A stretch of DNA of 45,071 nucleotides, from NCBI GenBank assembly GCA_030614685.1, contig JAUWTO010000005.1:1-45071 (forward strand), written 5' to 3'. Numbering within the stretch: position 1 is the stretch's first letter; each line of letters opens with the position of its first letter. This document shows, piece by piece, positions 3,639-31,522 of the stretch. The notes beneath the pieces are model-generated. The model had not been told where the DNA came from, did not search any database, and was given only the letters and a program-made list of their open reading frames with translations. Both the position numbers and the translations under genes were made by a program. The stretch comes from Candidatus Aminicenantota bacterium (GTDB lineage: Bacteria > Acidobacteriota > Aminicenantia > Aminicenantales > Aminicenantaceae).

Positions 3639-3686
3639 CGAGTCCCGGGAGTAGGAATGCCATTGAGGGTTGGGAGGAGTTGTGGT

Positions 3687-5411
3687 ATGGTTGTGGGCTC
3701 AATGAAGCAAAACGAGTGGATTCTTTCCGACGCAGACCCCAGGGCTGATTCTCTGGCCGCCGCCCTCGGCATCCCCGTCAAAATTGCCAGGATCCTGGTC
3801 AACCGCAAGATCACCGATGCCGAGGGGGCCCAGAGCTTCCTGCATGGGACCCTGGAGGATCTGCATGATCCCTTCCTCCTGCAGGGCATGCGCACAGCCG
3901 TAGAGAGGCTCCTGAAGGCTGCGTCTCGAGGAGAAAAGGTCCTGATCTTCGGGGATTACGATGTGGACGGCGTGCTGTCTGTCGTCATCCTCTCCCGGGC
4001 GCTCAGTACGCTGGGGGCCAAGGTAGACTACTACATCCCCGATCGTCTGGAGGAGGGCTACGGCCTCAAGACGAGTCACATCCAGATTGTAGAAGAGAAG
4101 CAGGCGCGCGTCGTCGTCAGTGTGGACTGCGGCATCAAAGCCGTGGATTTTGTGCGGGAAGCCTCCGGCAAAGGCGTGGATGTCATCATCACGGACCATC
4201 ATCTGCCAGGGGACCAGCTCCCCGAGGCCTTGGCGGTGCTCAATCCCGTGGTGCCGGGATCCGGATACCCGTACAAGAGCCTGGCCGGCATCGGCGTGGC
4301 CTTCAAGCTCATACAGGCGCTGTTTCAGGGGCATCCCAGGGAGTCCCAGCTTCCTCATTACCTGAAATTGGTGTCCATCGCGACCGTGGCGGATATCGTA
4401 TCGCTGACCGGGGAGAACCGGATCTTTGTCAGATACGGCCTGCAAGGACTTGAGGGAGTCTCCAACCTGGGACTGAAGAGCCTGCTCTCGGTCTGCGGAC
4501 TGGAGCACAAGAGCGTCCAGGTGTCGGATGTCGGATTCCGCATCGCACCCCGTATCAATGCGGCCGGGCGGATGGGTAGAGCGGACTTGGCCGTACAGTT
4601 GTTCTTTTCCGGATCAGAAGAAGAGGGCAGACGGATCGCTTCCGAGTTGGACGATATGAACGGGATCCGTCAGGGGATCGAGAAAAAGATATACGCCCAG
4701 GCGACACAACGGATCCGATCCCAGTCCCTGGACCAGCGCTATAAACTGCTTGTCCTGGGGTGTGACGAATGGCATCGTGGCGTCATCGGGATCGTGGCCT
4801 CCAAGCTCAAGGAGGATTTCCATCGGCCCGTTCTGCTGTTTGCCTACGATGCCGGGAAGGCCCACGGGTCGGGCCGCTCCATCCGTGAGTTCCCTCTGAT
4901 CGAATGCCTGGACCACACCCGCCAGTATTTTAACAACTATGGGGGACACCCCATGGCTGTGGGCTGCGAGCTGGGGATCGACAACCTCCCGCAGCTCAAG
5001 CGGGCCATGAACGCCTATGTCGACAACCGTATCACGGAAGAAGACCTCAGGCGGAAGATCCGGATCGATACCCGGCTCGACTTCGACGAGATCGGAGCGG
5101 CCTTCCTTGACCATTTTGCTCTCCTCTCCCCCTTCGGAGTCGGCAATCCCAAGCCCATCTTTACCACGGATGATGTCGAAGTCGTGGCGGCTCCCCGTCG
5201 GCTTCAAGAACGTCACCTCAAACTCCTCCTGAAACATAACGGGCGGTATTTCGATGCCGTGGGCTGGGGCAAAGGCGACTGGATCGATTCTCTCAGCAAG
5301 GGCAGCCGCATCTCAGTGGTGTACTCACTCCAGGTCAAGGAGTACCTGGGTCAAGAGCGCCTGACTCTCGTCCTGGAGGACATGCGGCCGTTCGGGACAT
5401 CTCCAACCTGA
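3687..5411 (+). CDS. recJ: Single-stranded-DNA-specific 5'-3' exonuclease RecJ
   Basis: RecJ degrades single-stranded DNA 5' to 3' in recombinational repair and mismatch repair. From the ATG at 3687 the protein has 574 residues, normal for RecJ. The DHH-superfamily metal motifs are clear: D90-Y-D92-V-D94-G, the VDCG at 146-149 and D170-H171-H172. APRINAAGRMG and a GGHPMAVG motif (DHHA1) follow, then a C-terminal OB-like domain. The start at 3687 is favoured by GGGAGGAG at 3672-3679, seven bases upstream. A second in-frame ATG at 3702 and an open frame back to 3657 are alternatives. It is divergent from ftsY with an 89-bp gap. I could not see a convincing promoter for it. Confidence 0.95.
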   Translation: MVVGSMKQNEWILSDADPRADSLAAALGIPVKIARILVNRKITDAEGAQSFLHGTLEDLHDPFLLQGMRTAVERLLKAASRGEKVLIFGDYDVDGVLSVVILSRALSTLGAKVDYYIPDRLEEGYGLKTSHIQIVEEKQARVVVSVDCGIKAVDFVREASGKGVDVIITDHHLPGDQLPEALAVLNPVVPGSGYPYKSLAGIGVAFKLIQALFQGHPRESQLPHYLKLVSIATVADIVSLTGENRIFVRYGLQGLEGVSNLGLKSLLSVCGLEHKSVQVSDVGFRIAPRINAAGRMGRADLAVQLFFSGSEEEGRRIASELDDMNGIRQGIEKKIYAQATQRIRSQSLDQRYKLLVLGCDEWHRGVIGIVASKLKEDFHRPVLLFAYDAGKAHGSGRSIREFPLIECLDHTRQYFNNYGGHPMAVGCELGIDNLPQLKRAMNAYVDNRITEEDLRRKIRIDTRLDFDEIGAAFLDHFALLSPFGVGNPKPIFTTDDVEVVAAPRRLQERHLKLLLKHNGRYFDAVGWGKGDWIDSLSKGSRISVVYSLQVKEYLGQERLTLVLEDMRPFGTSPT

Positions 5412-5480
5412 GCCAGGCCCCGGTATCTCTGTTCAGTCCCCCCCCGGCACAGCCGGATGAAGGAAACGGCCTCCAGGGAA

Positions 5481-5519: not shown

Positions 5520-7406
5520 ATGAAAAAGCAAAGGATCCGACCGGCCTTGATATTCAAGGTCTTCATCGCGCTGTTCATGCTTGCAGCCGTGTCCCTGATC
5601 ATCCAGAATTTCGTCAGCCGGTCACGGCTCAAGCCCAGGGTTCCCGTTGTGGAAACAGAGATCGCAGAGCAGAAGGTGGAGACCACTGAGGAGATCCATC
5701 ATTTCCAATTGAGAAGGGGGAAACTCGACTATGAAGTCCGGGCGGCCCGGCATTACATCGGTGATGACGGGCTCTATCACCTGGAGGGTGATGTCCAGCT
5801 CAAGTTTCCCGGCCGGGCCGATGGGGAAGATGTCGTGCTAACGGCCGGAGAGATCGTGCACGACCGTGAGAATGCTTTCTTTCGTATGCTGGGCGGAGCT
5901 GTCCTGGCGGCCAAAGATATCCGGATCGAAGCGGAGTCTTTCGAATACCAGACCGAGGAAGAACGCCTGCTCACAGATCGCCCGGTCAAATTTACCTCTG
6001 AGCGGATTTCGGGGTCGGCAAAAGAGGCTGTGTATCGAGCTACGAACCAGAGACTGATCCTGCGGAATGAGGTCCGTTTGAGCTTTACGACCGCCTCGGA
6101 TCCATCCCGGCCCGTACAGATCGAAGGAAATGAACTGGATTACCTGCATTCCCAGGGATCGGGTACCATTCGGGGAGATGCCCGCATCCATGCCGGGGAA
6201 AACTTCGCCGATGCCTCCCTCATCCAATTCGAGCTCTTTTCCAACAAGGAAAACCTCCGGAAGGTCCTCATGCAGGGAGATGTACATCTTGTGACGACGA
6301 GCCAGGATTCCTCCCCCTCCGATCCCAATTCCGAGGAGCAGGCTGCTCGACCGGAGCGCCGGGAGCTCAGGGCCCGAAAGGTGATGATCCGGGCCTGGCA
6401 CAACTCTCAGGAGATCCGATCCCTGGAGGCCGAGGGAAAATGCTACTTGCGGCAGGATACCGCAGGAGGGGAGTTCATCGAGACCACGGCTGACCGCTTG
6501 GACATCCAGTTCAACCATAAGGGGGGGATGAGGACGTTTCATGCCAGAGGCCACGTCAACATGGCGGAGCAGCGGGAGGGAGAGAGCCGCACCGTGCGCG
6601 GCGGTGTCCTTTCCATCGAGGGGAAAAAGCAGATCTTGCACGTGGAAAGCAGTGAGGAGTCGAGGGCGCGGATCAGAGCCGGGGACTACGAGATCGAAGC
6701 GGATGTCCTGGACATCATGCTCAACAGCCGGAACCTGGAGGCGGCGGGGGAGGTCAATGTCATCATGACCTCGCAGAAGGCGGAAGCGCCTGCGGTCGGA
6801 TTCTTCGGCGGAACGGATGCCATCTTTGTTAAAGCGGAAGAAATGAGATATTCAGGGAAGAACAGACGTTTTATGTTTACAGGAGACGTAAAAGTCTGGC
6901 AGGGAAAGGAAACGATGCTGACCCAGGAGATGACCATTTTCCGGGAGGGGGGGAACATGGTCTGCCGTGAGGGAGTGGAGACCCACATCACTGTCAATCC
7001 CAAGGGTGAGGAGGAGTACGACCTCGAGATCCGTGCTGACACCCTGGAGTACAAGCCGAGTTCCAGACGCCTGACCTACAGCGGCGACGTCATTGTCAAG
7101 GTGGAAGCCTCGGAACTGAAGGCAGATGAGCTCATCATTCGCCTCAGCGAAGAGGATAACAAGATACAGACATTGCTCGCCAGTGGCGATGTCGAAGTCA
7201 TCCGAGAGCTGTACAGGGCAGAGGGTCAGAAGGCCGTTTTTAACCTGGAAAAGGAAACCATCCAGTTGAGCGGGAACCCGGTTCTGACGCATCAGCAGAA
7301 GGGCCGGGTTCAGGGGGATAAATTGACTTTTTACCTGTCCGATGATAGAATCATCGTCGAAAATAAAGGCAGGGAAAGGTCCGAGACAGTCATTAAAAAA
7401 TCGTGA
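5520..7406 (+). CDS. LptC-LptA fusion, LPS transport bridge protein
   Basis: In LPS export, LptC is the membrane-anchored periplasmic partner of LptB2FG and LptA forms the periplasmic bridge to LptD. Here one 628-residue chain seems to do both. Residues about 10-29 are a single membrane anchor. An LptC-like part follows (about 55-180, including GLYHLEGDVQL). Several OstA/LptA-like beta-jellyroll units then run to the end, with repeated GDV and adenine-free 'ADxLxY' style strands such as ADTLEYKPSSRRLTYSGDV. E. coli LptC and LptA are each under 200 residues, so this chain is about as long as LptC plus two or three LptA units. The ORF is open back to 5457, but the promoter at 5481-5509 favours 5520. 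lptB follows 3 bp downstream. Confidence 0.85.
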   Translation: MKKQRIRPALIFKVFIALFMLAAVSLIIQNFVSRSRLKPRVPVVETEIAEQKVETTEEIHHFQLRRGKLDYEVRAARHYIGDDGLYHLEGDVQLKFPGRADGEDVVLTAGEIVHDRENAFFRMLGGAVLAAKDIRIEAESFEYQTEEERLLTDRPVKFTSERISGSAKEAVYRATNQRLILRNEVRLSFTTASDPSRPVQIEGNELDYLHSQGSGTIRGDARIHAGENFADASLIQFELFSNKENLRKVLMQGDVHLVTTSQDSSPSDPNSEEQAARPERRELRARKVMIRAWHNSQEIRSLEAEGKCYLRQDTAGGEFIETTADRLDIQFNHKGGMRTFHARGHVNMAEQREGESRTVRGGVLSIEGKKQILHVESSEESRARIRAGDYEIEADVLDIMLNSRNLEAAGEVNVIMTSQKAEAPAVGFFGGTDAIFVKAEEMRYSGKNRRFMFTGDVKVWQGKETMLTQEMTIFREGGNMVCREGVETHITVNPKGEEEYDLEIRADTLEYKPSSRRLTYSGDVIVKVEASELKADELIIRLSEEDNKIQTLLASGDVEVIRELYRAEGQKAVFNLEKETIQLSGNPVLTHQQKGRVQGDKLTFYLSDDRIIVENKGRERSETVIKKS

Positions 7407-7409
7407 AAG

Positions 7410-8138
7410 ATGAACCATCAGCTGGAAGCGTTGGGGCTGGAAAAAAGCTACCACAGGAAAAAGGTCGTCGATGACGTCTCCGTCAAAGTCCGGAAGGGTG
7501 AAATTGTTGGCCTCCTGGGACCGAATGGGGCCGGAAAGACCACGACGTTCTCCTTGATCCTCGGGCTGGTCCCTTCAGATAAGGGGCATGTCTATCTGGA
7601 CGGAGAGGACATCGCCCATCTTCCCATGTATGCCCGTGCCCGCCGAGGGCTCTGTCTGCTCCCTCAGGAGCCCTCAGCCTTCCGCAGATTGAGTGTGCGA
7701 GACAACCTCCTCTCCATACGGGAGATGAGCCGCGATTTTGATGAGCGCAGCAGCGGCGATCCCGACACCATCCTCAAGGAGCTTGGGCTGATCCGGCTGG
7801 CTGATGCCAAAGCCTACACGCTCTCGGGGGGAGAGCGACGGAGGCTGGAGATCGCTCGTGCTCTGGTCGCTGATCCGGAATACATCCTCCTGGATGAGCC
7901 GTTCACCGGGATAGATCCCCTGGCGATCTCGGACCTGCAGGACCTCATACTCTCCCTGCGGGCCAGAGGGCTCGGACTGCTGATCACCGATCACAGCGTT
8001 CGAGCGACACTCAAAATCACCGACCGTGCCTACATCATCGACAAAGGCAGAATCTTGAAGGAAGGCGTCCCGGATGAACTGGTGGCTTCGTTCGAAGTCC
8101 AGCAGAGCTATCTGGGCGAGGGCTTCAATCTGGATTGA
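7410..8138 (+). CDS. lptB: LPS export ABC transporter ATP-binding protein LptB
   Basis: LptB is the cytoplasmic ATPase that powers LPS extraction by LptFG and transfer to LptC. The 242-residue protein has Walker A GPNGAGKTT (near 38-46), a Q-loop in LLPQEPSAFRRL, the signature LSGGERRR, Walker B YILLDEPF and the switch histidine in ITDH. The LLPQEPSAF and TGIDPLAI segments are typical of LptB among ABC ATPases. It lies 3 bp after the lptC-lptA fusion and its stop is 2 bp before the rpoN ATG. This is the usual lptA-lptB-rpoN order of many diderm bacteria. No lptF, lptG or lptD is in the window. Confidence 0.96.
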   Translation: MNHQLEALGLEKSYHRKKVVDDVSVKVRKGEIVGLLGPNGAGKTTTFSLILGLVPSDKGHVYLDGEDIAHLPMYARARRGLCLLPQEPSAFRRLSVRDNLLSIREMSRDFDERSSGDPDTILKELGLIRLADAKAYTLSGGERRRLEIARALVADPEYILLDEPFTGIDPLAISDLQDLILSLRARGLGLLITDHSVRATLKITDRAYIIDKGRILKEGVPDELVASFEVQQSYLGEGFNLD

Positions 8139-8140
8139 TC

Positions 8141-9589
8141 ATGGCGCTCAAACAGCAGCTTCATCAGCGGCAGGTACAGAGGCTCATCCTGGCCCCTGCG
8201 CTGCAGCAGGCCATCAAACTGCTTCCCCTGACGAACCTGGAGCTGATCGAGATCATCGATGCCGAGCTCTCGCAGAACCCCATGCTCGAAACCCAGGAAG
8301 AAGAGGCCCCTGAAAAGCAGCAGGAGGAGACGGAAAAAGAGAACCAAACGGAGGCCGCTGAATCCGAGGCCTACGATGCGGAGAGCCTGGTCGAAGACAA
8401 GGAGTTCGAGACGTTTTTTCAGGAGTATTTTGACGACGGCTTCCGCGGCCTCTCCTTTGAAAAAAAGGAAGCTCCGATGCTGGAAAACTTCATATCCCGC
8501 TCGCTCTCGTTGTGGGATCATCTGGATTGGCAGGCCAACCTGACCTTTTTTGATCCCAAGGAGAAGGAGATCGCACAATACATCATAGGGAACATCAACG
8601 AGGATGGGTATCTGACGGTCTCCCCGGACGAGCTGTGTGAGAGCACTGGAGCGGACCTCGAGCAGGTGGAGACCATTCGGGGAAAGATCAAGAATTTCGA
8701 TCCCGTGGGAGTCGGCAGCCTTTCGCTGCAGGAATCGCTCCTCGTCCAGATGGAGTATTTCGGCATAGAAGATCCGGTGACGAAGAAGATCGTCCAGGAT
8801 CATCTCTTCCTCCTGGAGAAGTCCGACTTTTCCCTGCTCGCCAAGGAACTGGGGCTGTCCCGTGACTCGGTCAGGGCCCACATCGAGGTCATCAAAAGGC
8901 TGGACCCGACTCCGGGCCGGAAGTACAGTCAGGAGAAAACGAACTACGTGGTCCCGGACATCATCGTGACCAAGGAGGACGGCGAGCTCAAGATCACTCT
9001 CAACGATGAAGGGATGCCTCGCCTTCGTATCAACAGTTACTATAAAAAAATGCTGGCGCAGGCGTCCCGGGAAGACAGCGAAGCCAGCCGGTATCTGAAA
9101 GACAAGATGAAAAAAGCCTTCTGGTTTTTGCGCAGCCTGGACCAGCGGAAGAACACGATATACAAGGTGGCACAGTACATCGTAGATAAACAGACTGACT
9201 TTCTCGAGCAGGGGCTGGATTTCATAAAACCCCTGACACTGGTGGAACTGGCCCAGGAGATCGGTGTCCATGAGTCCACGGTGGGTCGAGTGGTCGCCAA
9301 CAAGCACATGATGACGCCCCGGGGGATATTCCCGCTCAAATATTTTTTTCACAAATCCCTGTCCGGAGACTTCGGCGAAGAGATCTCTTCCCTTCGCGTG
9401 AAGGAACGGATCCGCACGATGGTGGAGAACGAGGACAAGGATCAACCCCTCAGCGACATCGAGATCGAGACCGGCCTGGCGAGGGAGAATTTCAAGATCG
9501 CCCGCAGGACAGTGGCAAAATACCGAAAACAGCTGTCCATCCCGCCCTCGCATATCCGTAAGCGAAAATACTGGATGGAGGAATCGTAA
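8141..9589 (+). CDS. rpoN: RNA polymerase sigma-54 factor RpoN
   Basis: Sigma-54 directs RNA polymerase to -24/-12 promoters that need an AAA+ activator. The protein has 482 residues from the ATG at 8141; a TTG at 8135 overlapping the lptB stop is less likely. The N-terminal activator region is Gln/Leu-rich, with LAPALQQAIKLLPLT near 20-34. A short acidic region II follows (about 50-80). The core-binding and DNA-binding domains end with the RpoN box ARRTVAKYRKQ near 458-468. Length and architecture are normal. It sits in the classical lptB-rpoN-hpf-ptsN block. I did not see an enhancer-binding activator gene in the window, so its target genes cannot be inferred. Confidence 0.97.
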   Translation: MALKQQLHQRQVQRLILAPALQQAIKLLPLTNLELIEIIDAELSQNPMLETQEEEAPEKQQEETEKENQTEAAESEAYDAESLVEDKEFETFFQEYFDDGFRGLSFEKKEAPMLENFISRSLSLWDHLDWQANLTFFDPKEKEIAQYIIGNINEDGYLTVSPDELCESTGADLEQVETIRGKIKNFDPVGVGSLSLQESLLVQMEYFGIEDPVTKKIVQDHLFLLEKSDFSLLAKELGLSRDSVRAHIEVIKRLDPTPGRKYSQEKTNYVVPDIIVTKEDGELKITLNDEGMPRLRINSYYKKMLAQASREDSEASRYLKDKMKKAFWFLRSLDQRKNTIYKVAQYIVDKQTDFLEQGLDFIKPLTLVELAQEIGVHESTVGRVVANKHMMTPRGIFPLKYFFHKSLSGDFGEEISSLRVKERIRTMVENEDKDQPLSDIEIETGLARENFKIARRTVAKYRKQLSIPPSHIRKRKYWMEES

Positions 9590-10113
9590 TGACCGTTACG
9601 TATACCGCACGTCATACCGAGTTAACGCCGAATGTAGAGAAATACTGTGAGAGACGAATGGCATCCCTGGAAAAACTCCTGGGTTATCCCTTGGAGGCGC
9701 ACCTGATCCTTTCGGTTGAGAAATACCGGAACAAGGTCGAGATCAACGTCAAAACCAAGGGCGCCACTCTGAACGCGGTGAGCGAGACCCAGGACGTGTC
9801 CAGTTCACTGGGCGCTGCGTTTGATAACATAGAGCGGAGAGCCAAAAAAGAGAAAGATAAGTTGAGGGAACGTAAGCGGAGGAAAACCAAGGAGGCCGCT
9901 CCGACCGCCCCGCCCGAAGAGGACCAGGAAATGCAAAGGCGGGTCATCCGCAGCCGTAGGTTTGCCATGAAGCCCATGTCCGTGGAGGAAGCCACCATCC
10001 TGCTCGAATCCAGCAGGGACGAGGTTCTGGTTTTCAGGAAGTCCGACACGGAAACATGGGCGGTGCTGTACTGGAGAAAAGACGGAAATTTCGGTCTGAT
10101 CGAACCCAAGTAG
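9589..10113 (+). CDS. hpf: Ribosome hibernation promoting factor, long form
   Basis: HPF binds the 30S decoding site in resting cells; the long form dimerizes ribosomes directly through its C-terminal domain. The 174 residues contain an N-terminal HPF/RaiA fold (1-105, with a basic Lys/Arg stretch at about 81-105). A short Pro/Glu linker follows, and then a C-terminal domain beginning VIRSRRFAMKPMS and ending near the family's YRRxDGxxGLIEP-like segment. The ATG overlaps the last base of the rpoN stop (TAATG). The position after rpoN and before ptsN matches the rpoN operon of many diderms, where HPF is linked to slow-growth physiology. Confidence 0.95.
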   Translation: MTVTYTARHTELTPNVEKYCERRMASLEKLLGYPLEAHLILSVEKYRNKVEINVKTKGATLNAVSETQDVSSSLGAAFDNIERRAKKEKDKLRERKRRKTKEAAPTAPPEEDQEMQRRVIRSRRFAMKPMSVEEATILLESSRDEVLVFRKSDTETWAVLYWRKDGNFGLIEPK

Positions 10114-10132: not shown

Positions 10133-10603
10133 GTGAAAGTCTCCAATCTGCTCAATCGGGAAATGGTCCTTTCCGACTTGAAAAGCCAGGAACGGGATGG
10201 GGCCCTGCGGGAGATGGTCGGATTTCTCAAGCAGAGCGACAGGGTCGGGAAGGAGAAGGAGCTGTTCGAAAAACTGCGCCAGAGAGAAGAATTGGGGAGT
10301 ACGGCCATAGGAGATGGTGTGGCCATCCCCCACTGCAAGACCAACTCCATCAAGGAGCCACTGATCCTGCTTGCCATCTCTCGTGCTGGGGTGGATTTCC
10401 ATGCCCCGGACGGGAGCCTCTCCCAAGTCTTCTTCCTCGTCGTCTCCCCTTCGGATAATCCCAGCCTCAACCTTCAGATCCTGGCTGCCGTTGCCCACCT
10501 CGTGCGCAAAGCCGAAACGCTATTCCAGCGGATACTGGTAGCCGAGGATGCCGCTTCCATCATGAATGTCTTGCGGGAGGAAGAAGAAAGGATTAATGAA
10601 TAA
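10133..10603 (+). CDS. ptsN: Nitrogen-PTS EIIA component (PtsN)
   Basis: PtsN is the EIIA-Ntr-like phosphoacceptor of regulatory phosphotransferase chains. It does not transport sugar; in proteobacteria it controls potassium uptake and other processes. The 156-residue protein starts at a GTG (10133) with GGAG at 10121-10124 upstream. The phospho-acceptor is H67 in GVAIPHCK, corresponding to H73 of E. coli. The family's final 'hxxxxxxLQhLAxhA' segment appears as LNLQILAAVAHL. It ends overlapping hprK by 8 bp. With ktrB/ktrA in the same window, a link to potassium regulation is possible but purely inferential. Confidence 0.94.
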   Translation: MKVSNLLNREMVLSDLKSQERDGALREMVGFLKQSDRVGKEKELFEKLRQREELGSTAIGDGVAIPHCKTNSIKEPLILLAISRAGVDFHAPDGSLSQVFFLVVSPSDNPSLNLQILAAVAHLVRKAETLFQRILVAEDAASIMNVLREEEERINE

Positions 10604-11513
10604 CCGGAATGCGGGATCTGATCCCCGGGTGAAGGATTTTTTCTTTCAAGCCCGGGAGGCCCTCCGGCTGGAGGCCCCGCTCCAAGATGTGGGATTCCTC
10701 AAGAAGATCAAGGCCGACGCTTCCGGTCGGGTTTTCTCCAATCTTCAGGTATGGGATCACAAGGAGATGCAGGCCCTCGGCGGCCTCTCTCAGGATGAGA
10801 AGCGGGCCTGGCTCATCGAGAGGTTCAGGAAGGGGGTCGCTTGTGTGATCTTCGCAGATGGCCTGGCTGTACCGGAAGAGGTGGGCGCCCCGGCCCGGCG
10901 GTACAAGGTCGCTGTTTTTAGTTCTCCTCTCCCCAAGAAGCAGTGCGTTGGGGGAATCCGAAGGATCCTCGCTGATTTTTTCCCGAACAGAATTGTGGTG
11001 TCCGGTGGCCTGCTGCAGATCTTCGAACTGGGTGTCTTGATCATGGGGGACAGCGGTGTGGGCAAGAGCGAAAGTGCTCTGGAACTGATCTCTCGTGGCA
11101 ACCGGTTTGTATCGGACGATGTGACTCGGATCAGGAAGAGTGCGGCCGGCACTCTGATAGGTTCCGCCCCATCCCTGAGCCAGAACTTCATGGAGATTCG
11201 GGGCCTGAGCATAATCAACATCGAGCACATTTTCGGAGCCGCTGTGATCTGCCGCCGTTCGGAGATTGATTTGGCCATCTACCTGGAGAGGTGGGAGGCC
11301 GGAAAAGAATACGACCGTCTGGGGCTGGAGACCCCGGAAAAGGTCGAGATCCTGGGGATTGAGGTCCCGCAGGTCACGATCCCGGTTGCCCCGGGGCGCA
11401 ACATCGCCACCTTGATCGAGGTGGCCTGCAAGGTCCACATTTTGAGAAAAAAAGGGTATCACGCACCCCACGAGATCGCACGGCGACTGGACCGTGCCCT
11501 ATCCTCGCAGTAA
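10596..11513 (+). CDS. hprK: HPr kinase/phosphorylase
   Basis: HprK phosphorylates and dephosphorylates a serine of HPr, gating its role as phosphocarrier or regulator. From the ATG at 10596 it is 305 residues, the usual length. The C-terminal catalytic domain shows the special Walker A GDSGVGKSESALELI. MEIRGLSIINIEHIFG lies further on, in the HPrK signature region. The frame is open from 10566, but the earlier ATG lies inside ptsN. AAAGGA at 10587-10592 is close to the chosen start and the gene overlaps ptsN by 8 bp (ATGAATAA). The HPr encoded at 13200 has a serine at position 46, so the expected substrate is present in the same locus. Confidence 0.96.
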   Translation: MNNRNAGSDPRVKDFFFQAREALRLEAPLQDVGFLKKIKADASGRVFSNLQVWDHKEMQALGGLSQDEKRAWLIERFRKGVACVIFADGLAVPEEVGAPARRYKVAVFSSPLPKKQCVGGIRRILADFFPNRIVVSGGLLQIFELGVLIMGDSGVGKSESALELISRGNRFVSDDVTRIRKSAAGTLIGSAPSLSQNFMEIRGLSIINIEHIFGAAVICRRSEIDLAIYLERWEAGKEYDRLGLETPEKVEILGIEVPQVTIPVAPGRNIATLIEVACKVHILRKKGYHAPHEIARRLDRALSSQ

Positions 11514-11514
11514 A

Positions 11515-12390
11515 ATGGGTAAGGGGAATAGAGTACTGAACGACCGATTCCTGATCATCACCGGTCTTGCGGGATCGGGGAAGACCTCGGTCAGCCGCTT
11601 CCTGGAGGACTTTGGGTATTACTGCATGGACAACCTGCCGGCCATGCTGATCCCCAGTTTTGTCGAACTTTGGAGGCGGAGGGAGGTCGAGATCGAGAAG
11701 GTCGCGTTGACACTGGATATCCGGGAAGCCTCGTTCCTGACCGAATTCCCCAAAGTACTGCGCCGCATCCGACAGGAGATCAATCCCCGCGTCATTTTTT
11801 TGGACGCTTCTGACGAAACCCTGATCAAGAGGTTCAGCGAGAGCCGCCGCCCTCATCCCATAAAGGACAGTGGGTCCATCCGCGAGAGCGTTGCCTTGGA
11901 GCGAAAACGACTGGCGGAGATCAAGAATATGTCGGACGAGGTCATCAACACCTCCGACACGAACATCAATGACCTGAAAAAGATCCTGACGCGCAGGTTC
12001 GTCGAACAGTCTGCCGCCAAGATGCAGGTGGTGGTGGTCAGTTTCGGATACAAATACGGCCTCCCCCTGGATGCCGATATTGTCTTAGACACAAGGTTCC
12101 TGCCCAATCCGTTTTACGTCGATGACCTCCGGGAGAAGACCGGGAAGAACGCCAAGGTGCGCAAGTATGTGCTGGAGGCCCCAGAGACCAAACGTTTTAT
12201 TCAGGAGATGTTCCGCTTTGTCGATTACCTGATGCCGAATTTTGTCGAGGAAGGCAAGAGCTATGTCACGGTTGCTGTAGGATGCACCGGCGGAAAACAC
12301 CGGTCTGTCGCCCTGGCAGAGGTCCTGGGGGAACATCTCAAGGAGATGACGTTCAAGGTTCAGGTCAACCACCGCGACATATTTAAATAG
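11515..12390 (+). CDS. rapZ: RNase adapter / nucleotide-binding protein RapZ
   Basis: RapZ (YvcJ/YhbJ family) is a P-loop protein. In enterobacteria it is an adapter that guides RNase E to the small RNA GlmZ and so tunes glucosamine-6-phosphate supply; in other phyla its target is less clear. The 291-residue protein has Walker A GLAGSGKT at 17-24 and FGYYCMDNLP just after it. FLDASDETLIKRF lies in the middle, and the C-terminal domain carries GCTGGKHRSV. A GTG at 11494 inside hprK would add seven residues; the ATG at 11515 is one base after the hprK stop. It is the last gene before a 389-bp gap. Confidence 0.93.
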   Translation: MGKGNRVLNDRFLIITGLAGSGKTSVSRFLEDFGYYCMDNLPAMLIPSFVELWRRREVEIEKVALTLDIREASFLTEFPKVLRRIRQEINPRVIFLDASDETLIKRFSESRRPHPIKDSGSIRESVALERKRLAEIKNMSDEVINTSDTNINDLKKILTRRFVEQSAAKMQVVVVSFGYKYGLPLDADIVLDTRFLPNPFYVDDLREKTGKNAKVRKYVLEAPETKRFIQEMFRFVDYLMPNFVEEGKSYVTVAVGCTGGKHRSVALAEVLGEHLKEMTFKVQVNHRDIFK

Positions 12391-12497
12391 TCTGAATCCT
12401 TCTCGAGCCTGATTTCTTCCCGATGTTTCTCTTCGGAGGCTTGCCGCAGTACACACAGATCTACCTGCACACGCCTTGCAAATGTGCGACCCGGACT

Positions 12498-12532
12498 CGT
12501 GAATGATCCAGGCCCTCTGGATTAAGTATATC
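12498..12532. repeat. Dispersed intergenic motif, copy 1
   Basis: CGTGAATGATCCAGG (12498-12512) and TAAGTATATC (12523-12532) recur in the tolB-pal gap at 17789-17814 with one substitution in the first block and identity in the second. The spacer differs: 10 bases here and 1 base there. Both copies lie in gaps longer than 290 bp. Function is unknown. Confidence 0.5.
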
Positions 12533-12566
12533 CCAAGGCTGACAACAGGAGGGAAACCATGGAGAA

Positions 12567-12678
12567 GGCGAGAAGCAAGGTGCTAGCGGCTTTGAGCTGA
12601 TGGCAGGCCGGGAACACTGAAGGGGGCGGGAAGCAAGGAGTTTGTGGCTTTAAGCTGATGGTAGGGTGGGAACAGTGA
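12567..12678. repeat. Imperfect 58-bp-period tandem repeat
   Basis: Two 54-bp units, 12567-12620 and 12625-12678, match at 44 of 54 positions by hand alignment, including AGAAGCAAGG/GGAAGCAAGG and GGCTTT(G/A)AGCTGATGG. They are non-coding, lying between rapZ and the EIIA gene. The rest of 12391-12779 holds the dispersed motif at 12498 and a promoter at 12698. I see no gene or RNA there. Confidence 0.7.
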
Positions 12679-12697
12679 TGGGGGAGGGTTGGATGGG

Positions 12698-12726
12698 TTG
12701 ATTATAGGAAGAGATTTAGGTAAAGT
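12698..12726 (+). promoter_or_regulatory. Probable promoter of the EIIA-HPr-EI genes
   Basis: TTGATT (12698-12703) and TAAAGT (12721-12726) are separated by 17 bp. The same -10 hexamer is used by the ktrB promoter. The predicted transcription start near 12734 gives a leader of about 45 nt to the ATG at 12780. Confidence 0.45.
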
Positions 12727-12779
12727 TAGGGCGAGTAGCCCCACGCATAGAGGGACCGATGGTCCCTGGGAGTGATGAG

Positions 12780-13184
12780 ATGATCGGTGGCATTATTGTT
12801 TCCCACGGAAAGCTGGGCGAGGAACTCCTGAACGCACTGAACATCATCCTGGGCGAAGCGGTCAACATAGAGGCCATTTCTATCGGATGGTATGACGATG
12901 TCGAGGAATCGAAGCTCAAGATCAACCAGTCGCTGAAAAGAGTGGACCAGAAAAACGGTGTGCTGATCTTCACCGACATGTTTGGGGGCACTCCGTCCAA
13001 CCTGAGCTTTACCTTTCTGAAGGACGGCCAGGTGGAGATCATCACAGGAGTCAACCTGCCGATGCTCATCAAATTTGTATCCCTGCAGCGCAGCTATAAC
13101 CTGAAAGAGGTGGCCAAGAAGGTGGTGGAACAGGGAAAAAAGAACATCCATCTCGCCAGTGCCCTCCTCAAGGCGCGCAGCTGA
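12780..13184 (+). CDS. Mannose-family PTS EIIA component
   Basis: This is a phosphoacceptor of the EIIA-Man type, which takes phosphate from HPr. The 134-residue protein has the family N-terminus MIGGIIVSHG, with the likely phosphohistidine H9, and the TDMFGGTPSNL loop near 66-76. The frame is open from 12759, but GGGAG at 12768-12772 and the standard N-terminus select 12780. Only the A domain is present: no IIB, IIC or IID gene is adjacent, as is common in diderm bacteria where such proteins are regulatory. It is followed by ptsH and ptsI with short gaps of 15 and 6 bp. Confidence 0.92.
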   Translation: MIGGIIVSHGKLGEELLNALNIILGEAVNIEAISIGWYDDVEESKLKINQSLKRVDQKNGVLIFTDMFGGTPSNLSFTFLKDGQVEIITGVNLPMLIKFVSLQRSYNLKEVAKKVVEQGKKNIHLASALLKARS

Positions 13185-13199
13185 GTATTCCGAGTACCC

Positions 13200-13469
13200 A
13201 TGATAACCAAAGCCGTGACTATAAAGAACAAACTGGGGCTGCATGCCAGGGCGGCTGTCATGCTGGTCAACCTGGCAAACCGTTTCGAATCTTCCGTGAA
13301 GATCGAAAAAGACGGCAGTGAGATCGACGGAAAGAGCATCCTGGGGATTCTGACCCTGGCCGCGACTCAGAGATCCCAGATCACGCTCAGAATTTCGGGC
13401 CGGGATGAGGGCCTGGCCATGGAGGCCCTGGTCGATTTGATCGAGGCCCGCTTTCAGGAAGAAGAATAG
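13200..13469 (+). CDS. ptsH: Phosphocarrier protein HPr
   Basis: HPr carries phosphate from Enzyme I to EIIA proteins. The 89-residue protein has the phosphohistidine H15 in NKLGLHARAA. It also has a serine exactly at position 46 in DGKSILGILTL, the site used by HPr kinase. It therefore looks suited to both types of phosphorylation, consistent with hprK 2.6 kb upstream. The C-terminus ends in an acidic QEEE. It lies 15 bp after the EIIA gene and 6 bp before ptsI. Confidence 0.96.
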   Translation: MITKAVTIKNKLGLHARAAVMLVNLANRFESSVKIEKDGSEIDGKSILGILTLAATQRSQITLRISGRDEGLAMEALVDLIEARFQEEE

Positions 13470-13475
13470 AGGACC

Positions 13476-15248
13476 ATGGATTACTATCGGCTGAGAGGAA
13501 CCGGCGTTTCTCCGGGAATCGCGATCGGTGAGGTGCGTCTCACAGAAAAGGTCGTTTTTTCCGCACGGAAAGAGACCATCCTGGCAGATAAGGCATCCGA
13601 GGAGCTTGAAAGGCTGGAGGCGGCACTCAAGCGGACACGGAAACAGCTCGTCCAGATCAAGGAAAAGATCAGGATTAAACTGGGCGAGGACCATTCCTTT
13701 ATCTTTGAAGCGCATCTGTTGATCCTGAAGGACAAGTCTCTGATCCTCGGTTTGAGAACGAAGATCGAGGAGGATCTATTCCGGTCCGAATGGGCCATCA
13801 CTCAGGTGCACAACCATTACATGACGATCTTCGATTCCATATCCGACGACTACCTCAACCAGCGCAAGTATGATGTGACGGACGTGTTGTCCAAGGTTTA
13901 CCTGAACCTGCAACCGACCGATGCTCCCAAGAGAGAGGACGGGACGGACAGTGTGTTGGTGGCCCACGACCTGCTGCCCTCCGAAGCCGCCTCCCGGTTG
14001 AGCCGGGGAAACGTGCTGGCAGTGGCCCTGGATGTGGGCGGGACCACCTCGCACACCGCCATCCTGGCGCGTTCCTTGAATATCCCCGCAGTGATGGGCC
14101 TGCGGGACATCACCCACAATGTGAAAGACGGGGACACTCTGATCGTGGACGGAATAGACGGGGAGGTGATCATCAACCCCCCGTTGGCCATACGGCGGGA
14201 GTTCATCGGCAAGAAGAAGAAGTACGATGATTACCGCCAGGAACTGCAGAAGACCGCCACTCTGGAGGCCCGGACGCTGGATGGCGTCCGCTTCACTCCG
14301 TTGGCCAACATCGAGTTGCCGGAAGAGGTCAAGGTCGCGCAATCCATGGGAGCAGAGGGAATCGGTCTCTTCCGCTCAGAATTCATCTATTTCCAGAGCG
14401 CCGAACTTCCTGGGGAGGAGGATCATTTCCGGATCTATTCTCAGCTCGCCCAGCAGGCGGCCCCCCTGCCCGTTTACATCCGTACCATCGACATCGGGGG
14501 AGAGAAGGCCCTGCCTCAGATGCAGATCGAGAAGGAGCCCAACCCGGCCCTGGGGCTGCGTGCCATTCGTTTTTCCCTCCGTGAGCGTAAGATCTTCAGG
14601 ATCCAGATCAGGGCCATATTGCGAGCCAGCGTCACGAAGAATGTCAGCATCCTCATCCCTATGATCACCGAACTGGAGGAAGTGCAGGAGGTGAAGATCC
14701 TGCTCCGCGAGGCCCAGGATGAGCTCAGGCAGGAAGGAATCGCATTCGATGAGAACATCCCCTTGGGCGTCATGATCGAAGTGCCGGCCGCTGCCGCCAT
14801 CACGGACAAGATCGCCCGGGAGGTGGATTACCTCAGCATCGGCACCAACGACCTGATCCAGTACTATCTAGCCGTGGATCGCTCCAACGAACTCGTCTCC
14901 TATCTGTTCAAGCCGCTGCACCCGTCGGTCCTGAGGCTTCTCAAGTTCATCATAGATTCGGCCAGGAAGGCGGGCAAAGAGGTCACGGTCTGCGGGGAAA
15001 TGGCGGCCGATCCCCTCTCCGCCATCGTGCTGTTGGGCCTGGGCTTGAAAAATTTCAGCATGAATCCCATCTTCATCCCCCGGATCAAACGGGTCCTGCG
15101 TTCGATCGAATATGGGACCGCCAGAAAGATCGTCCACAGAGCCCTGACTCTGAAGACAGCCCAGGAGATCGAGGAGCATATCCTGGAGAGTGTCCTCGTC
15201 AAACATCCCACCGCCCTGCTGATGGGGGGGGAGTATCCTTCGGCCTGA
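13476..15248 (+). CDS. ptsI: PTS Enzyme I (phosphoenolpyruvate-protein phosphotransferase)
   Basis: Enzyme I autophosphorylates from PEP and passes phosphate to HPr. The 590-residue protein has an HPr-binding helical N-terminal region with phosphohistidine H193 in GGTTSHTAILAR. It also has the PEP-binding TIM barrel, with EGIGLFRSEFIYF, IRTIDIGGEK, SIGTNDLIQYYLAVDR and VCGEMAADP. Length is about normal (570-590). It overlaps nothing, but its stop abuts the convergent cupin gene at 15249. No terminator hairpin is visible between them, only a short CCTGATCAGG palindrome at 15244-15253. Confidence 0.97.
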   Translation: MDYYRLRGTGVSPGIAIGEVRLTEKVVFSARKETILADKASEELERLEAALKRTRKQLVQIKEKIRIKLGEDHSFIFEAHLLILKDKSLILGLRTKIEEDLFRSEWAITQVHNHYMTIFDSISDDYLNQRKYDVTDVLSKVYLNLQPTDAPKREDGTDSVLVAHDLLPSEAASRLSRGNVLAVALDVGGTTSHTAILARSLNIPAVMGLRDITHNVKDGDTLIVDGIDGEVIINPPLAIRREFIGKKKKYDDYRQELQKTATLEARTLDGVRFTPLANIELPEEVKVAQSMGAEGIGLFRSEFIYFQSAELPGEEDHFRIYSQLAQQAAPLPVYIRTIDIGGEKALPQMQIEKEPNPALGLRAIRFSLRERKIFRIQIRAILRASVTKNVSILIPMITELEEVQEVKILLREAQDELRQEGIAFDENIPLGVMIEVPAAAAITDKIAREVDYLSIGTNDLIQYYLAVDRSNELVSYLFKPLHPSVLRLLKFIIDSARKAGKEVTVCGEMAADPLSAIVLLGLGLKNFSMNPIFIPRIKRVLRSIEYGTARKIVHRALTLKTAQEIEEHILESVLVKHPTALLMGGEYPSA

Positions 15249-22703: not shown

Positions 22704-23357
22704 ATGAAATTTGCAGTGATCGGCTTGGGAAGCTTTGGGGGGCATTTTGCCAAAACCCTGTACGAAAACGGCCATGAGGTTCTGGCCGTGGACAGTGATA
22801 AAGACAGGATCGAAGAGATGAAGACGTATGTCTCCCATGCTGTCAACATGGAAGCCGCCGTCAAAGAGAACCTGGAGGCTTTGGGTTTAGAGGAGATGGA
22901 CGTCGTGTTGGTCAGCTTGGGCCCCAATATGGAAGCTTCCATCCTCACTGTGCTCTATCTGCACGAAATGCGTGTGAAACGTATCTTAGCCAAGGCACTG
23001 AGCGAGGACCATCTCAAGATCCTGGAGTCCGTGGGTGCGACCGAAGTCATCTATCCGGAAAGGGACATGGCCATAAAGACCGCGCTCAGGTTGAGTAATC
23101 CCAATGTTCTGGAATATCTGCCCCTTCCTTCAGGGTTCAGCATTCAGGAGATCGCCCCGCCCGAAAAGTTCATCGGGAAAAGTATCCGTGAACTGGATCT
23201 GCGCAACAGGCTCGGAATCCTCGTCATCGCCATCCGCGAATTGGTACCCGAAAAGATCAACCTGTCGCCTTCGGCCGACTTTGTCATCAAGGACAGCGAT
23301 ATCATGGTGATCTTAGGCGAGGATGCGCAGCTCTCCAAGCTCGCCAAGAGTGGTTAG
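22704..23357 (+). CDS. ktrA: Potassium uptake regulatory subunit KtrA (RCK family)
   Basis: KtrA is the cytoplasmic RCK ring that gates KtrB in response to nucleotides. The 217-residue protein has a Rossmann RCK-N domain with GLGSFG at 7-12 and the nucleotide-binding acid D30 (VLAVDSDKDR). GANEV-type text appears as GATEVIYPERDMA near 112-124. A C-terminal RCK-C domain follows (about 135-215). A good AAGGA lies seven bases before the ATG. Its stop overlaps the stop of the convergent helicase gene. Length and motifs fit KtrA rather than the double-domain TrkA. Confidence 0.94.
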   Translation: MKFAVIGLGSFGGHFAKTLYENGHEVLAVDSDKDRIEEMKTYVSHAVNMEAAVKENLEALGLEEMDVVLVSLGPNMEASILTVLYLHEMRVKRILAKALSEDHLKILESVGATEVIYPERDMAIKTALRLSNPNVLEYLPLPSGFSIQEIAPPEKFIGKSIRELDLRNRLGILVIAIRELVPEKINLSPSADFVIKDSDIMVILGEDAQLSKLAKSG

Positions 23358-25720
23358 TTCGTTAGCAGTTCTTGAAGGATCTGGAGAGCCACGTCCTTGG
23401 CCATCTGGCCGCTGGACTTTGTAGGGCCCACACATGACGGGCATCCCCCCTGGCAGGGACACTCCCGGATAGTCCTCAGGCACTGCTCCAGCAGTTGTTT
23501 CTCCAGCTCGAACAGGGAGGGGCTGAGCCCGATCCCCCCCGGAAAGTTATCGTAGACGAAGAGGTTGGGCTCGAACGCCTCGTCCGCAGTGAACATCATC
23601 TCTTCCCTGTCCGACATCCTCTGCCGGATGTCACGCGGCGGTATGGACTTCCCGGTGGCGTTGTCTCCCAGCGAGACCCCGATGTCATGCAGGTCGCACA
23701 TCATGAACAGAGGAGAAACGTGGTGCAGGCAGTAGGTGAGCCCGAAGAGCCCGTTGATTTTCTGTTCCGAAGAGAAAGGCAGGCTCAGGAGGAGATCCGA
23801 GGGTATGGTCAGCCAGTAGGCCGTCGTGTGCATCTCATTCTGGGGCAGGCTGAGGTCGCCGGCGCCCACGTTCTCCATAGTATGGAATTTGATCTTCTTG
23901 AATCCGACCACCTGGGTAGCCACGTGGACCTCCCCGTGCTGCAGGGCACAGTTCTTGAGGTTGCGGCGGTCGAACTCATCCAGGATCTTGATCTTGGTAT
24001 AGTCTATGGCATCGGTGTAGTAATCGATGTCGGTCCGGCGGACATAGGCACGGCGCTGGTCGAAGTCGAGGTCCTCGACGATATACTGCTCCCCTTCGCA
24101 GAGGTAGATCGCCTTGGGATGCAGCGTGGTCAGGGCCGAGGAAAAGTCCACCTCGGCGATGACCCGGGATTTTTCCGTGGTGTCCACCACCACGAAATTA
24201 TCCGAGGAGATGCTGCGGAGGTTGACTCCGTCGGCCGGATATACATCGGATGTCCAGTACCATTTATCCTGGGAATGGTGGACAAGTTTCTCGTCTTCCA
24301 GAAAGGACAGGATCTCCGCGGTGTCCACCGTGCCGAATTTTTCCCCGTCCACAAAGGGGAGCTCGAAGGCGGCACACTCGATGTGGCTGACCAGGATGGA
24401 GAGATTATCGGGATTGATGAGGGCTTTTTCCGGATTCTTGGAGAAGAAGTAGTCGGGGTGGTTGACGATGAACTGGTTCAGAGGGGAACTGGAAGCCACC
24501 AGCACGGCGGCGGATTGTCCTGTCTTGCGTCCCGCTCGCCCGGCCCTCTGCCAAGTCGAGGCGATGGTCCCCGGATAGCCTGCCAGGACCGCCACGTCCA
24601 GGCTTCCGATGTCGATGCCCAGCTCCAGGGCATTGGTCGAGATCACGCCGCGGATCTCACCCGAACGCAGCTCCCGCTCGATCTCGCGGCGCTTCTGGGG
24701 CAGGTAGCCGCCTCGGTATCCACGGATGCGCCCTTTCTGAGTGACGTTCTTTTCGAAGTCGTCTTTGAGATAGGTCACGAGGACCTCGGTGATGAGGCGG
24801 CTCTGGGCGAAGACGATGGTCTGGAGGTCATGGCGTATGAAGAGAGAGGCCACGCGCCGCGCCTCCTTGACGTAGGACCGCCGGATCCCGAGGTATTTGT
24901 TGACGACCGGTGGATTGTAGAAGATGAAAAACTTCTCACCGCTGGGAGCTCCGTTGTCATCCACCAGCGAAACCGGCTCCTCGATGATCCGCTCCGCCAC
25001 CTCCTTGGGATTGGCGATGGTGGCCGTGCACAGGATGAAGCGGGGTTCGGACCCGTAGAAGCGAGCGATGCGCTTCAGCCGCCTCAGTACATTGGCCAGA
25101 TGGCTGCCGAAGATGCCGCGGTAATTGTGGAGTTCGTCGATGACGATATACTGGAGGTTTTCGAAGAGTTTGATCCACTTGGTATGGTGCGGAAGGATTC
25201 CCGAGTGGAGCATATCCGGGTTGGTGATGACGATGTGGCCCCGGGATCGGATGGCCTTGCGCGCGTCCTGTGGGGTGTCCCCGTCATAGGTGAAAATTCG
25301 GATCTCATCGGGGAGCTTCTTGATGGTGTCGTCCAACTCCGCCCTCTGGTCCTGGGACAGGGCCTTGGTGGGGAACATGTAGATGGACCGGGATGAGGGA
25401 TTGCTGAGTATGGAGTCGAGGACCGGGAGGTTGTAGCAGAGGGTTTTTCCCGAGGCGGTGGGGGTGACCACGACCGCGTTTTTTCCCTGGCGGAGGAGCT
25501 CCCAGGTCTGGCGCTGGTGCGTGTACAGGCGCGAAAAACCCTTCTCCTGCAGCGCTTGAACCAGATTGGGGTGGGCCTCCTGGGGATAATCCTGGTAGCG
25601 TCCTTCGCGTGCGGGGATGTGCTCCACGGCCCGGAGGGTATCCTCCCGGACCCCGTGTTTCTTCAGCTCCTCCAATGCCTCCTGGAAGTGGGTTGATCGC
25701 GCTGTTGTGTCCTCTTTCAC
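23354..25720 (-). CDS. MrfA-like DEAD/DEAH-box helicase with C-terminal cysteine cluster (DUF1998)
   Basis: The protein resembles MrfA/YprA, a helicase needed for mitomycin-damage repair in Bacillus subtilis. From the GTG at 25720 it is 788 residues. Seen are Walker A TPTASGKT at 86-93, DELH at 195-198, SAT-like CTATIANP, and RecA2 motifs STNALELGIDIGSLD and QRAGRAGRKTGQSA. The C-terminal DUF1998-like part includes NFPGGIGLS and C754, C756, C760 and C763 in CPCQGGCPSC. The start rests on CTCCT (25727-25731, read as AGGAG on the minus strand) six bases upstream and on a promoter whose -10 lies at 25746-25751; ATG codons at 25750 and 25774 overlap or precede that -10. No mrfB exonuclease is adjacent. 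The exact function here is inferred. Confidence 0.85.
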   Translation of the reverse strand: MKEDTTARSTHFQEALEELKKHGVREDTLRAVEHIPAREGRYQDYPQEAHPNLVQALQEKGFSRLYTHQRQTWELLRQGKNAVVVTPTASGKTLCYNLPVLDSILSNPSSRSIYMFPTKALSQDQRAELDDTIKKLPDEIRIFTYDGDTPQDARKAIRSRGHIVITNPDMLHSGILPHHTKWIKLFENLQYIVIDELHNYRGIFGSHLANVLRRLKRIARFYGSEPRFILCTATIANPKEVAERIIEEPVSLVDDNGAPSGEKFFIFYNPPVVNKYLGIRRSYVKEARRVASLFIRHDLQTIVFAQSRLITEVLVTYLKDDFEKNVTQKGRIRGYRGGYLPQKRREIERELRSGEIRGVISTNALELGIDIGSLDVAVLAGYPGTIASTWQRAGRAGRKTGQSAAVLVASSSPLNQFIVNHPDYFFSKNPEKALINPDNLSILVSHIECAAFELPFVDGEKFGTVDTAEILSFLEDEKLVHHSQDKWYWTSDVYPADGVNLRSISSDNFVVVDTTEKSRVIAEVDFSSALTTLHPKAIYLCEGEQYIVEDLDFDQRRAYVRRTDIDYYTDAIDYTKIKILDEFDRRNLKNCALQHGEVHVATQVVGFKKIKFHTMENVGAGDLSLPQNEMHTTAYWLTIPSDLLLSLPFSSEQKINGLFGLTYCLHHVSPLFMMCDLHDIGVSLGDNATGKSIPPRDIRQRMSDREEMMFTADEAFEPNLFVYDNFPGGIGLSPSLFELEKQLLEQCLRTIRECPCQGGCPSCVGPTKSSGQMAKDVALQILQELLTN

Positions 25721-25745
25721 CGGTGGCTCCTTTCGGTTACTCGCT

Positions 25746-25774
25746 ATCATAGTATGAACACCAGACCCGGTCAA
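25746..25774 (-). promoter_or_regulatory. Promoter of the MrfA-like helicase gene
   Basis: On the minus strand TTGACC (25769-25774) and TATGAT (25746-25751) are separated by 17 bp. Transcription should begin near 25739, about 19 nt before the GTG at 25720. It leaves room for the AGGAG site. Confidence 0.65.
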
Positions 25775-28350: not shown

Positions 28351-28372
28351 ACATAATGCAAAAGGAGAAAAC

Positions 28373-31300: not shown

Positions 31301-31522
31301 GCCGGCGAGACCCTGCGGGAGATCCGGGGATCCGGCGATCCGGGCCTGAAAAAGGTGTCCTGGAACCTGCGCAAGACCATCCGGCAGGCTGAGGGCCAGA
31401 GGGCCCGCCGCGGAGGAGCACCCCTGGTGGATGCGGGACTGTACAAGGTAACGTTAATGGTGGACGATGAGGAGGTGGCCACCAAGGACCTCAAGGTCAT
31501 CAACGACCCCATCATGAACTGA
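28373..31522 (+). CDS. Secreted Asp-box (BNR/VPS10-type) beta-propeller protein
   Basis: The 1049-residue protein has a signal peptide (1 to about 24, ending LIAQ) and many Asp-box/BNR repeats. Examples are STDAGKTW at 133-140, TTDGGETW at 186-193, TTDGGQTW at 243-250 and SDDLGETW at 445-452, with more such as SRDGGDTW and TTDFGKTW later. This matches the sortilin/VPS10-like or glycosidase-like proteins common in Acidobacteriota and Bacteroidota. A charged, helix-prone stretch (about 290-430) interrupts the propeller. The C-terminus (about 965-1049) resembles a FlgD-type Ig fold, with VKDLAGETLREI. AAAGGAG (28361-28367) sets the start. No catalytic residue is clear, so substrate and activity are unknown. 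Confidence 0.8.
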   Translation: MRTKCLRILTLAVLLWGLSGGLIAQEEAPSGITTKDLDVFAWHHIGPWTFSGRITDFAVPSGQSQIYYVATASGGLWKTDDGGISFKPIFDQYGNMSIGNVEVASSDHNIVYMGTGEAMHARSSAHGNGMWKSTDAGKTWTHIGLEESHYIPKIAIDPKNPDIVYVAAEGKLYSNNMDCQRGLYKTTDGGETWALVLDLKDRGVGDFVIDPRNSDIVIAGGYKTFRRAWTFIDRQPGNYFYKTTDGGQTWKQLTNELPQDIKSGWSGITIYPKNPDIVYIRYDEVVNLGLREREGSANFNARRLFQDGWQLKKLKAFKINKDIAKLVDFELIEFEKAEDLVEKLNEMVKDSEFQTQLGVDLAAFNKKTRQVYKNESEILESIDEIEKTTKTYQAAAQEEMEADSKEAKVQNARMQTINRHLLEIIYSGVFQIQQPIKKSGVIYRSDDLGETWQRMTEYQQSGGSAQVNDIEAGYAGRIEIDPNDENVLYAVETIQKVSRDGGKTFKNAPWFGNGKCHVDVRGIWIDPLNSNHILCGNDGGVSQTWNGGKNWSQKETISAQQFYDISVDNEMPYNVMGGTQDNGCWIGPSRNRNQYGVFPADWTYLPSGDGYYVLRDWWNPEWIYFESQFGRSNRMNLKTGEMISLSVRNTQEENEAGKAPQRYQWDSPILLSPHNPGIVYVCSQHVHMSRSRGEPGTWETISPDLSRNNQDRIEESKLTNLQYATVYTFAESPVKPGVFWAGTDDGNLQLSRDGGDTWTNITFNFYDTNGKPKKNIQGELIPFDRWVSRVEPSAHDLETCYVTWSGYRTHDEDNSYVFMTTDFGKTWSDLSGGMMNPVRDIEEDPDNPDVLYLATDYGVFVTFDRGSRWINLSDKAPDVIMMDLDIQKRERDLAIATYGRGFYIVDIYPLKEMKPEVFEAAAYLFEPQRTVKWNMLERRGQSYGEFAKVNNPRVESHIYYYIGTKAKKVTVVVKDLAGETLREIRGSGDPGLKKVSWNLRKTIRQAEGQRARRGGAPLVDAGLYKVTLMVDDEEVATKDLKVINDPIMN

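Follow-up and report, generated by a model that had tools for sequence, protein, structure and literature searches.

The LptC protein of E. coli consists of a single N-terminal membrane helix beside one jellyroll and ends there, at about 190 aa. LptA is a separate periplasmic protein of 16 strands, and the tunnels of the LetAB/LetB type have the MCE fold. The LptA copy number in the E. coli bridge is called unknown in three articles (PMC10863985, PMC7237710, PMC10094684), the first of which gives 40 Å per LptA and about 15 nm for LptC–LptA–LptD with one LptA. In the LetAB tunnel of E. coli one polypeptide spans both membranes, and PMC8727689 contrasts this with the Lpt system, bridged by interacting small jellyroll proteins. 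Diderm Firmicutes are described in PMC5007114 as having just one LptF/G homologue together with two OstA proteins, each about 200 aa long. In an Lpp+21 strain the Lpt bridges seem prone to disruption, according to a paper on Lpp (PMC8824477), and the sigma-54 neighbourhood with lptABC is given as conserved in PMC3162934. As for the Acidobacteria, lptF and lptG are apparently absent according to one survey (PMC8871954), and an LptF/LptG permease is listed for one genome in another text (PMC8787282).

In our study, a frame of 628 codons, uninterrupted from ATG 5520 to the stop at 7404-7406, was analysed in the window (the whole stretch of 45,071 nucleotides, from an uncultured member of the Ca. 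Aminicenantes lineage of the Acidobacteriota), and its product probably replaces LptC and the LptA oligomer by one natural chain. Like lptC of E. coli, the gene lies near lptB and rpoN, and the first jellyroll of the chain matches enterobacterial LptC, whereas the chain adds about 24 beta passes to this part and its strands run to about residue 625. The OstA jellyroll of E. coli LptA and P. aeruginosa LptH is recovered at two places with an rmsd of 2.0-2.8; unlike LptA, about three such lengths are here covalently joined and membrane-anchored. The N-terminal domain of LptD has the same fold, but the chain is followed by no outer-membrane barrel, and separate LptD-like genes of 713-755 aa are found in relatives. 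With LetAB the chain would share bridging by one polypeptide, whereas the fold appears unrelated, and no MCE family was found in the Pfam scan of the chain or among the structure matches listed. The models of LptB, LptF and LptG, the partners in LptB2FG, are all above cut-off in the window's genome, whereas LptF and LptG form one 777-aa chain there. The arrangement of the diderm Firmicutes, with their two OstA proteins and single LptF/G, also differs from that of the chain.

Table 1. Coordinates of the bridge gene, its predicted parts and its neighbours in the window.
Feature	Position	Strand	Remarks
recJ	3657..5411	+	upstream neighbour; DHH, RecJ_OB, DHHA1 matches
Putative single-chain LptC–LptA bridge protein gene	5520..7406	+	628 aa + stop
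Single transmembrane helix, residues 8-35	5541..5624	+	predicted by model; Lys/Arg-rich N-terminus precedes
Low-confidence linker, residues 36-53	5625..5678	+	pLDDT < 50
LptC-like jellyroll, residues 51-201	5670..6122	+	VIA-align 6mit_C, TIGR04409
LptA-like jellyroll length, residues 196-352	6105..6575	+	middle segment folded alone
Low-confidence loop, residues 263-275	6306..6344	+	pLDDT < 50; in middle segment
Overlapping jellyroll stretch, residues 279-416	6354..6767	+	fits LptC structure 4b54_A
LptA-like jellyroll length, residues 430-564	6807..7211	+	E. coli LptA match
C-terminal LptA-like stretch, residues 495-618	7002..7373	+	overlaps 430-564; 8bss, LptD_N, TIGR03002
Most conserved chain end, residues 583-620	7266..7379	+	proposed LptD docking edge
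lptB, exporter ATPase	7410..8138	+	TIGR04406 321.8 bits vs cut-off 240, E 2.2e-96
rpoN (sigma-54)	8135..9589	+	downstream neighbour
hpf (S30AE ribosome hibernation factor)	9589..10113	+	
ptsN-type EIIA	10133..10603	+	

Predicted fold and length of the chain

The first in-frame ATG lies at 5457 and would give 649 aa; ATG 5520 was preferred because L046, L047 and other relatives share M-K-K there. Both curated equivalog models of NCBIfam were found to score above their cut-offs on the chain, TIGR04409 for LptC at residues 18-187 (42.8 bits, cut-off 38) and TIGR03002 for LptA with its best match at 498-626 (114 bits, cut-off 71.7). The Pfam scan has shown LptD_N in four stretches (4e-37), one of them at residues 503-607, as well as LptC (2.2e-8). 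At E <= 0.001, the LptA model matches all 29 chains of alignment A2 and the LptC model 24 of them.

The full chain was modelled by AlphaFold2 with 29 sequences (mean pLDDT 84.4, pTM 0.71), and the model has one helix (8-35) followed by strands only, from residue 56 to 625. By the positive-inside rule, the Lys/Arg-rich N-terminus before the helix places the body of the chain in the periplasm. Residues 51-201 fit the enterobacterial LptC structure 6mit_C (Z 12.5, rmsd 2.6, 141 aligned). The middle segment 186-432 was folded separately (pLDDT 85.9, pTM 0.80), and residues 196-352 fit LptH 4uu4 (Z 13.2, rmsd 2.5, 127 aligned) and LptA 2r1a_C (Z 13.2, rmsd 2.8, 126 aligned), while the overlapping residues 279-416 fit LptC 4b54_A (Z 11.2, rmsd 3.7, 123 aligned). 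Further along, residues 430-564 fit E. coli LptA 2r1a_C (Z 13.3, rmsd 2.0, 126 aligned), residues 495-618 fit 8bss (Z 9.4, rmsd 3.3, 123 aligned) and residues 425-621 fit the LptD N-terminal domain 4q35_A (Z 15.0, rmsd 2.8, 167 aligned), which was also matched by the middle segment folded alone (Z 16.1). Taken together, these matches leave little of 51-621 uncovered, and the entire periplasmic part is therefore predicted to have the OstA fold. Matches to OspA (Z about 7-8.5) were set aside as a common beta arrangement.

Comparison within the chain was made with segment profiles scored against one sequence. The profile of 190-313 reached 27.6 bits at 495-561, which is sequence support for the OstA fold, and that of the LptC part reached 10.0 bits at 335-423, whereas the profile of 300-434 did not exceed 3.5 bits anywhere else in the chain. 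Sequence support for the unit at 300-434 is weak, and this unit is suggested by the predicted fold.

For the length of the bridge, a strand of at least 10 residues was counted as one pass and a shorter one as half. About 33 beta passes were obtained in this way, the LptC part accounting for 9 and the rest of the chain for 24, the latter corresponding to 3.0 LptA equivalents at 8 passes each. With 40 Å per LptA the chain would be about 16-17 nm long, a value which is a count and not a measured distance. A preliminary description of this DNA had read the product as one chain with a single membrane anchor, an LptC-like part and several OstA-like units, and the family models and the predicted fold agree with it. 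It had called for the jellyroll units to be counted by structure prediction; more than one OstA unit was found, with about three LptA lengths after the LptC part, and a fold of one unit is ruled out by the predicted models of the full chain and of the middle segment.

Relatives, gene order and the fused permease

A search of genome contigs with the single protein sequence gave no match, and it was then made with a 12-row alignment (A1) together with the pattern GDKLTFxLxD. This search of named genomes yielded 34 loci; Candidatus Aminicenantes stands in the title of 31, and the remaining three are titled Acidobacteriota, Acidobacteria and Clostridiales. The locus titled Clostridiales bacterium (L057, JARYMI010000012.1) is of the Aminicenantes type, with a best segment 29% identical and with recJ-like and lptB-like neighbours, and its label is probably wrong. 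In other public records, 28 further chains align along the chain, and the order of the parts is kept in the 29 sequences of A2. Across the phylum the protein was matched in 192 of 297 genomes at E <= 0.001, many of the matches being partial.

The nearest relative, L046, has 72% identity over the chain. The dN/dS against it is 0.18 overall and 0.08-0.25 across six segments and, judged from these sequence ratios, the whole chain appears to be under purifying selection. The conservation at 599-608 in A2 is biased because the search selected on the pattern GDKLTFxLxD; in A1, which was gathered without this pattern, 10 of the 20 invariant columns lie within 583-620, a concentration at the C-terminus.

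The rows of A2 have chain lengths of 572-660 aa, some being clipped by contig ends, and the longest chain in the phylum has 810 aa (L032). The lengths of L038, L040 and L042, which are cut N-terminally by the end of the locus, were excluded, and L037 has a 659-aa frame, for which an overlapping 670-aa frame was picked by the script. The LptC-like segment measures 133-139 aa in all 29 rows, in which the C-terminal segment has 193-198 aa; the middle segment, containing the low-confidence loop, is the most variable (189-268 aa). From residue 56 onward the mean length is 576 aa with an SD of 16. This pattern fits a conserved number of strands but is no demonstration that the periplasm takes its width from the length of the chain. 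Such a role of protein length had been put forward in the preliminary description, and it is unsupported because chain lengths in the phylum span 572-810 aa, which suggests that the bridge must fit the width rather than set it.

The position of lptB immediately after the gene, noted earlier, was confirmed by its family model (Table 1). In relatives, this neighbour was recognised when the following gene encoded a P-loop motif, at most 150 bases downstream. Such an LptB-like ATPase gene was found in all 30 loci of the first phylum survey, the window's own included. In a second set, picked by the LptD_N model and repeating some genomes of the first survey, lptB adjoins in 19 of 29 loci (15 by script and four, L098, L099, L100 and L115, by eye). 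Seven of the other 10 have no lptB beside the frame in the stretch examined, L118 resembles an LptD, and L093 and L116 stand outside the lptB counts. Two members of the same taxonomic class, L094 (G129) and L104 (G034), carry a chain of 620-625 aa without lptB directly downstream in the stretch examined, and hence the gene order is not universal. The recJ gene was also read by eye upstream in many relatives, with a different gene at that place in L025.

In the window's genome the 777-aa LptF–LptG chain (G000:C110:4343-6640; L011:292-2625, L045) matches the LptF model at residues 4-375 with 351.0 bits against a cut-off of 230 and the LptG model at residues 420-772 with 330.2 bits against 240. 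In the order, an LptF_LptG match was found in 87 of 94 genomes; among the 84 order genomes listed, both matches fall in one frame of 769-930 aa in 66; a frame of 700 aa or more is present in 78, and the other six have shorter frames of 403-665 aa. The phylum gave a match in 148 of 149 genomes, many being listed with two matches per frame of about 750-950 aa. In family f30 (G027, G053, G065, G106, G115 and others) the LptF_LptG matches are weaker and come in 3-4 pieces, and these permeases may be diverged or split. The fusion bears on the statement, in PMC8871954, that Acidobacteria apparently lack lptF and lptG.

LptD was not found in the window's genome by PF19838 (LptD_2), nor with the protein of a relative (L081), a search without a positive control. 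PF19838 matches 13 of 38 family genomes; the window's genome, the same-genus G313 and G304 are not among them. Since G304 is the source of the LptD-like protein L083, this absence is not proof that LptD is lacking. In relatives (L081-L085), reading by eye showed LptD-like genes of 713-755 aa whose products have an OstA-like N-terminus; of the two proteins scanned by Pfam, L081 matches LptD_2 (2.8e-18) and L083 matches LptC only, below cut-off. In the window's genome, a predicted outer-membrane barrel of 717 aa (G000:C177:5777-6328; L009, L010) was the source of a weak LptD match, and it was rejected because the barrel matches the GSU2204 and MtrB/PioB families.

Search for separate subunits and competing explanations

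The preliminary description had also called for a search of the genome for separate lptA or lptC genes. In the window's genome (2.94 Mb, 397 contigs, 83.47% complete), all five LptD_N matches and all three LptC matches at E <= 10 lie in the bridge gene and none elsewhere. Both models match E. coli among 14 controls, the responsible gene not being stated. Neither of the outcomes named there as contrary to its reading, separate full-length genes or a fold of one unit, was encountered.

In the order, LptD_N matches 87 of 94 genomes at E <= 1, and among the matches listed its frames have at least 358 aa, mostly more than 600, except two of less than 300 aa. These are G323:C5 (176 aa), which forms the end of a 60,285-base contig, and G311:C113 (101 aa), which begins at base 16. 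There was no clear standalone LptA among the matches listed for the 94 genomes. Frames of 358-504 aa were found in G310, G332, G336, G339, G341, G348, G359 and G369. In the last of these (G369:C268:2816-4352), a single contig carries frames of 367 and 358 aa between which the LptC-like and LptA-like matches are divided, by a frameshift or a natural split. The LptC models are weak detectors; they match 72 of the 94 genomes at E <= 0.1, and matches below cut-off occur in frames of 346-356 aa (G322:C148, G307:C60, G321:C115). In the phylum, at E <= 1e-6, LptD_N matches 80 of 149 genomes, leaving 69 without a match, and no frame below 548 aa is present among the matches listed.

These searches bear on a reading which we regard as quite unlikely, namely that the long chain supplies no more than the inner-membrane part of the bridge, which is completed by one or more free LptA or LptA-like subunits, missing or diverged. 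The genome is 83% complete and in 397 contigs, LptD is also unfound there, so that Lpt genes do escape detection, and the models miss diverged members, as seen from the counts of LptD_2 in the family and of LptD_N in the phylum. A small LptA might accordingly have been missed, given this completeness and the undetected LptD. However, both LptD_N frames below 300 aa among the order matches listed lie at contig ends, the listed phylum matches contain none below 548 aa, and the E. coli control was matched by the model, with the gene not stated. A rather unlikely reading keeps the bridge as described and changes its cargo to a lipid other than classical lipopolysaccharide. The literature search on lipopolysaccharide or Lpt in Aminicenantes found nothing, and the Lpt apparatus of T. 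pallidum is said, in PMC8407342, to serve an uncharacterised non-LPS substrate; on the other hand, the LptB, LptF, LptG, LptC and LptA models are all above their cut-offs, and the LptD-like genes adjoin apparent dTDP-sugar genes in L082 and L085, as read by eye.

It is highly improbable that the chain is made whole and then cut after export into conventional LptC and LptA pieces. The low-confidence loop 263-275 in the middle could be a cut site, but it falls inside the LptA-like stretch 196-352 and not at a unit border, the only other long strand gap past residue 56 is at about 417-434, and the part order is kept across the 29 sequences. An assembly or frameshift artefact joining separate lptC and lptA genes, conceivable in a draft genome of 397 contigs, is refuted by 28 more sequences of other public records that carry the long chain as well, by the high-confidence fold of the full chain and of the middle segment, and by the low dN/dS, and its probability is negligible.

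Proposed function of the covalent bridge

With the chain taken as a replacement for LptC and the LptA oligomer, the single helix would anchor it in the inner membrane, with the LptC-like jellyroll next and then about three LptA lengths. LptB2 and the one fused LptF–LptG chain would load lipopolysaccharide or a similar glycolipid into the start of the groove in the LptC-like part, and the lipid may travel along a covalent groove of about 16-17 nm. At the outer membrane, the conserved C-terminal edge would then join the jellyroll at the N-terminus of LptD; residues 583-620 appear suited to a docking surface because half of the invariant columns of A1 fall there. Free LptA would not be needed, and in this way the gene would set the number of bridge units, with the bridge fitting the periplasm and not by itself setting its width. 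The earlier proposal of a covalent bridge in place of the LptA oligomer has held in its part on a fixed number of units, which is supported; that it works instead of free LptA we infer from absence. The transporter and bridge are thus formed by two long chains and LptB, LptD being read in relatives.

A wider proposal, on which we are evenly divided, is that the Aminicenantes, and probably most Acidobacteriota, have a fixed-stoichiometry exporter (LptFG, LptC–LptA3, LptB and LptD). Its bridge would be permanently joined to its start and open at LptD alone, there would be no exchange of LptA, and its length would co-evolve with the envelope width of the lineage. The E. coli bridge is reportedly transient; with the chain, a transient joint could exist only where it meets LptFG or LptD. 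A covalent bridge cannot part between LptC and LptA, and it therefore tests the need for a reversible LptC–LptA joint.

In the literature searched (open-licence PMC texts), neither an LptC–LptA nor an LptF–LptG fusion was found described as occurring in nature. The novelty of this study lies in a covalent LptC–LptA bridge that is natural and accompanied by a fused LptFG, and the replacement reading is well supported. A natural chain with about three units would be one evolutionary answer to the question of LptA copy number, and the length of such a bridge would be alterable unit by unit through gene editing. Moreover, the LptF–LptG fusion would be an obligate heterodimer, useful in structural work.

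Further along the window, a compact PTS-regulatory block of hprK, rapZ and a ptsI-like gene (10566-15248) lies after the rpoN cluster. Long frames were also found to overlap on opposite strands at 23354-25774 (-) and 23495-25396 (+) and at 28166-31522 (+) and 28397-31243 (-), and in each pair only one frame is likely to be a real gene.
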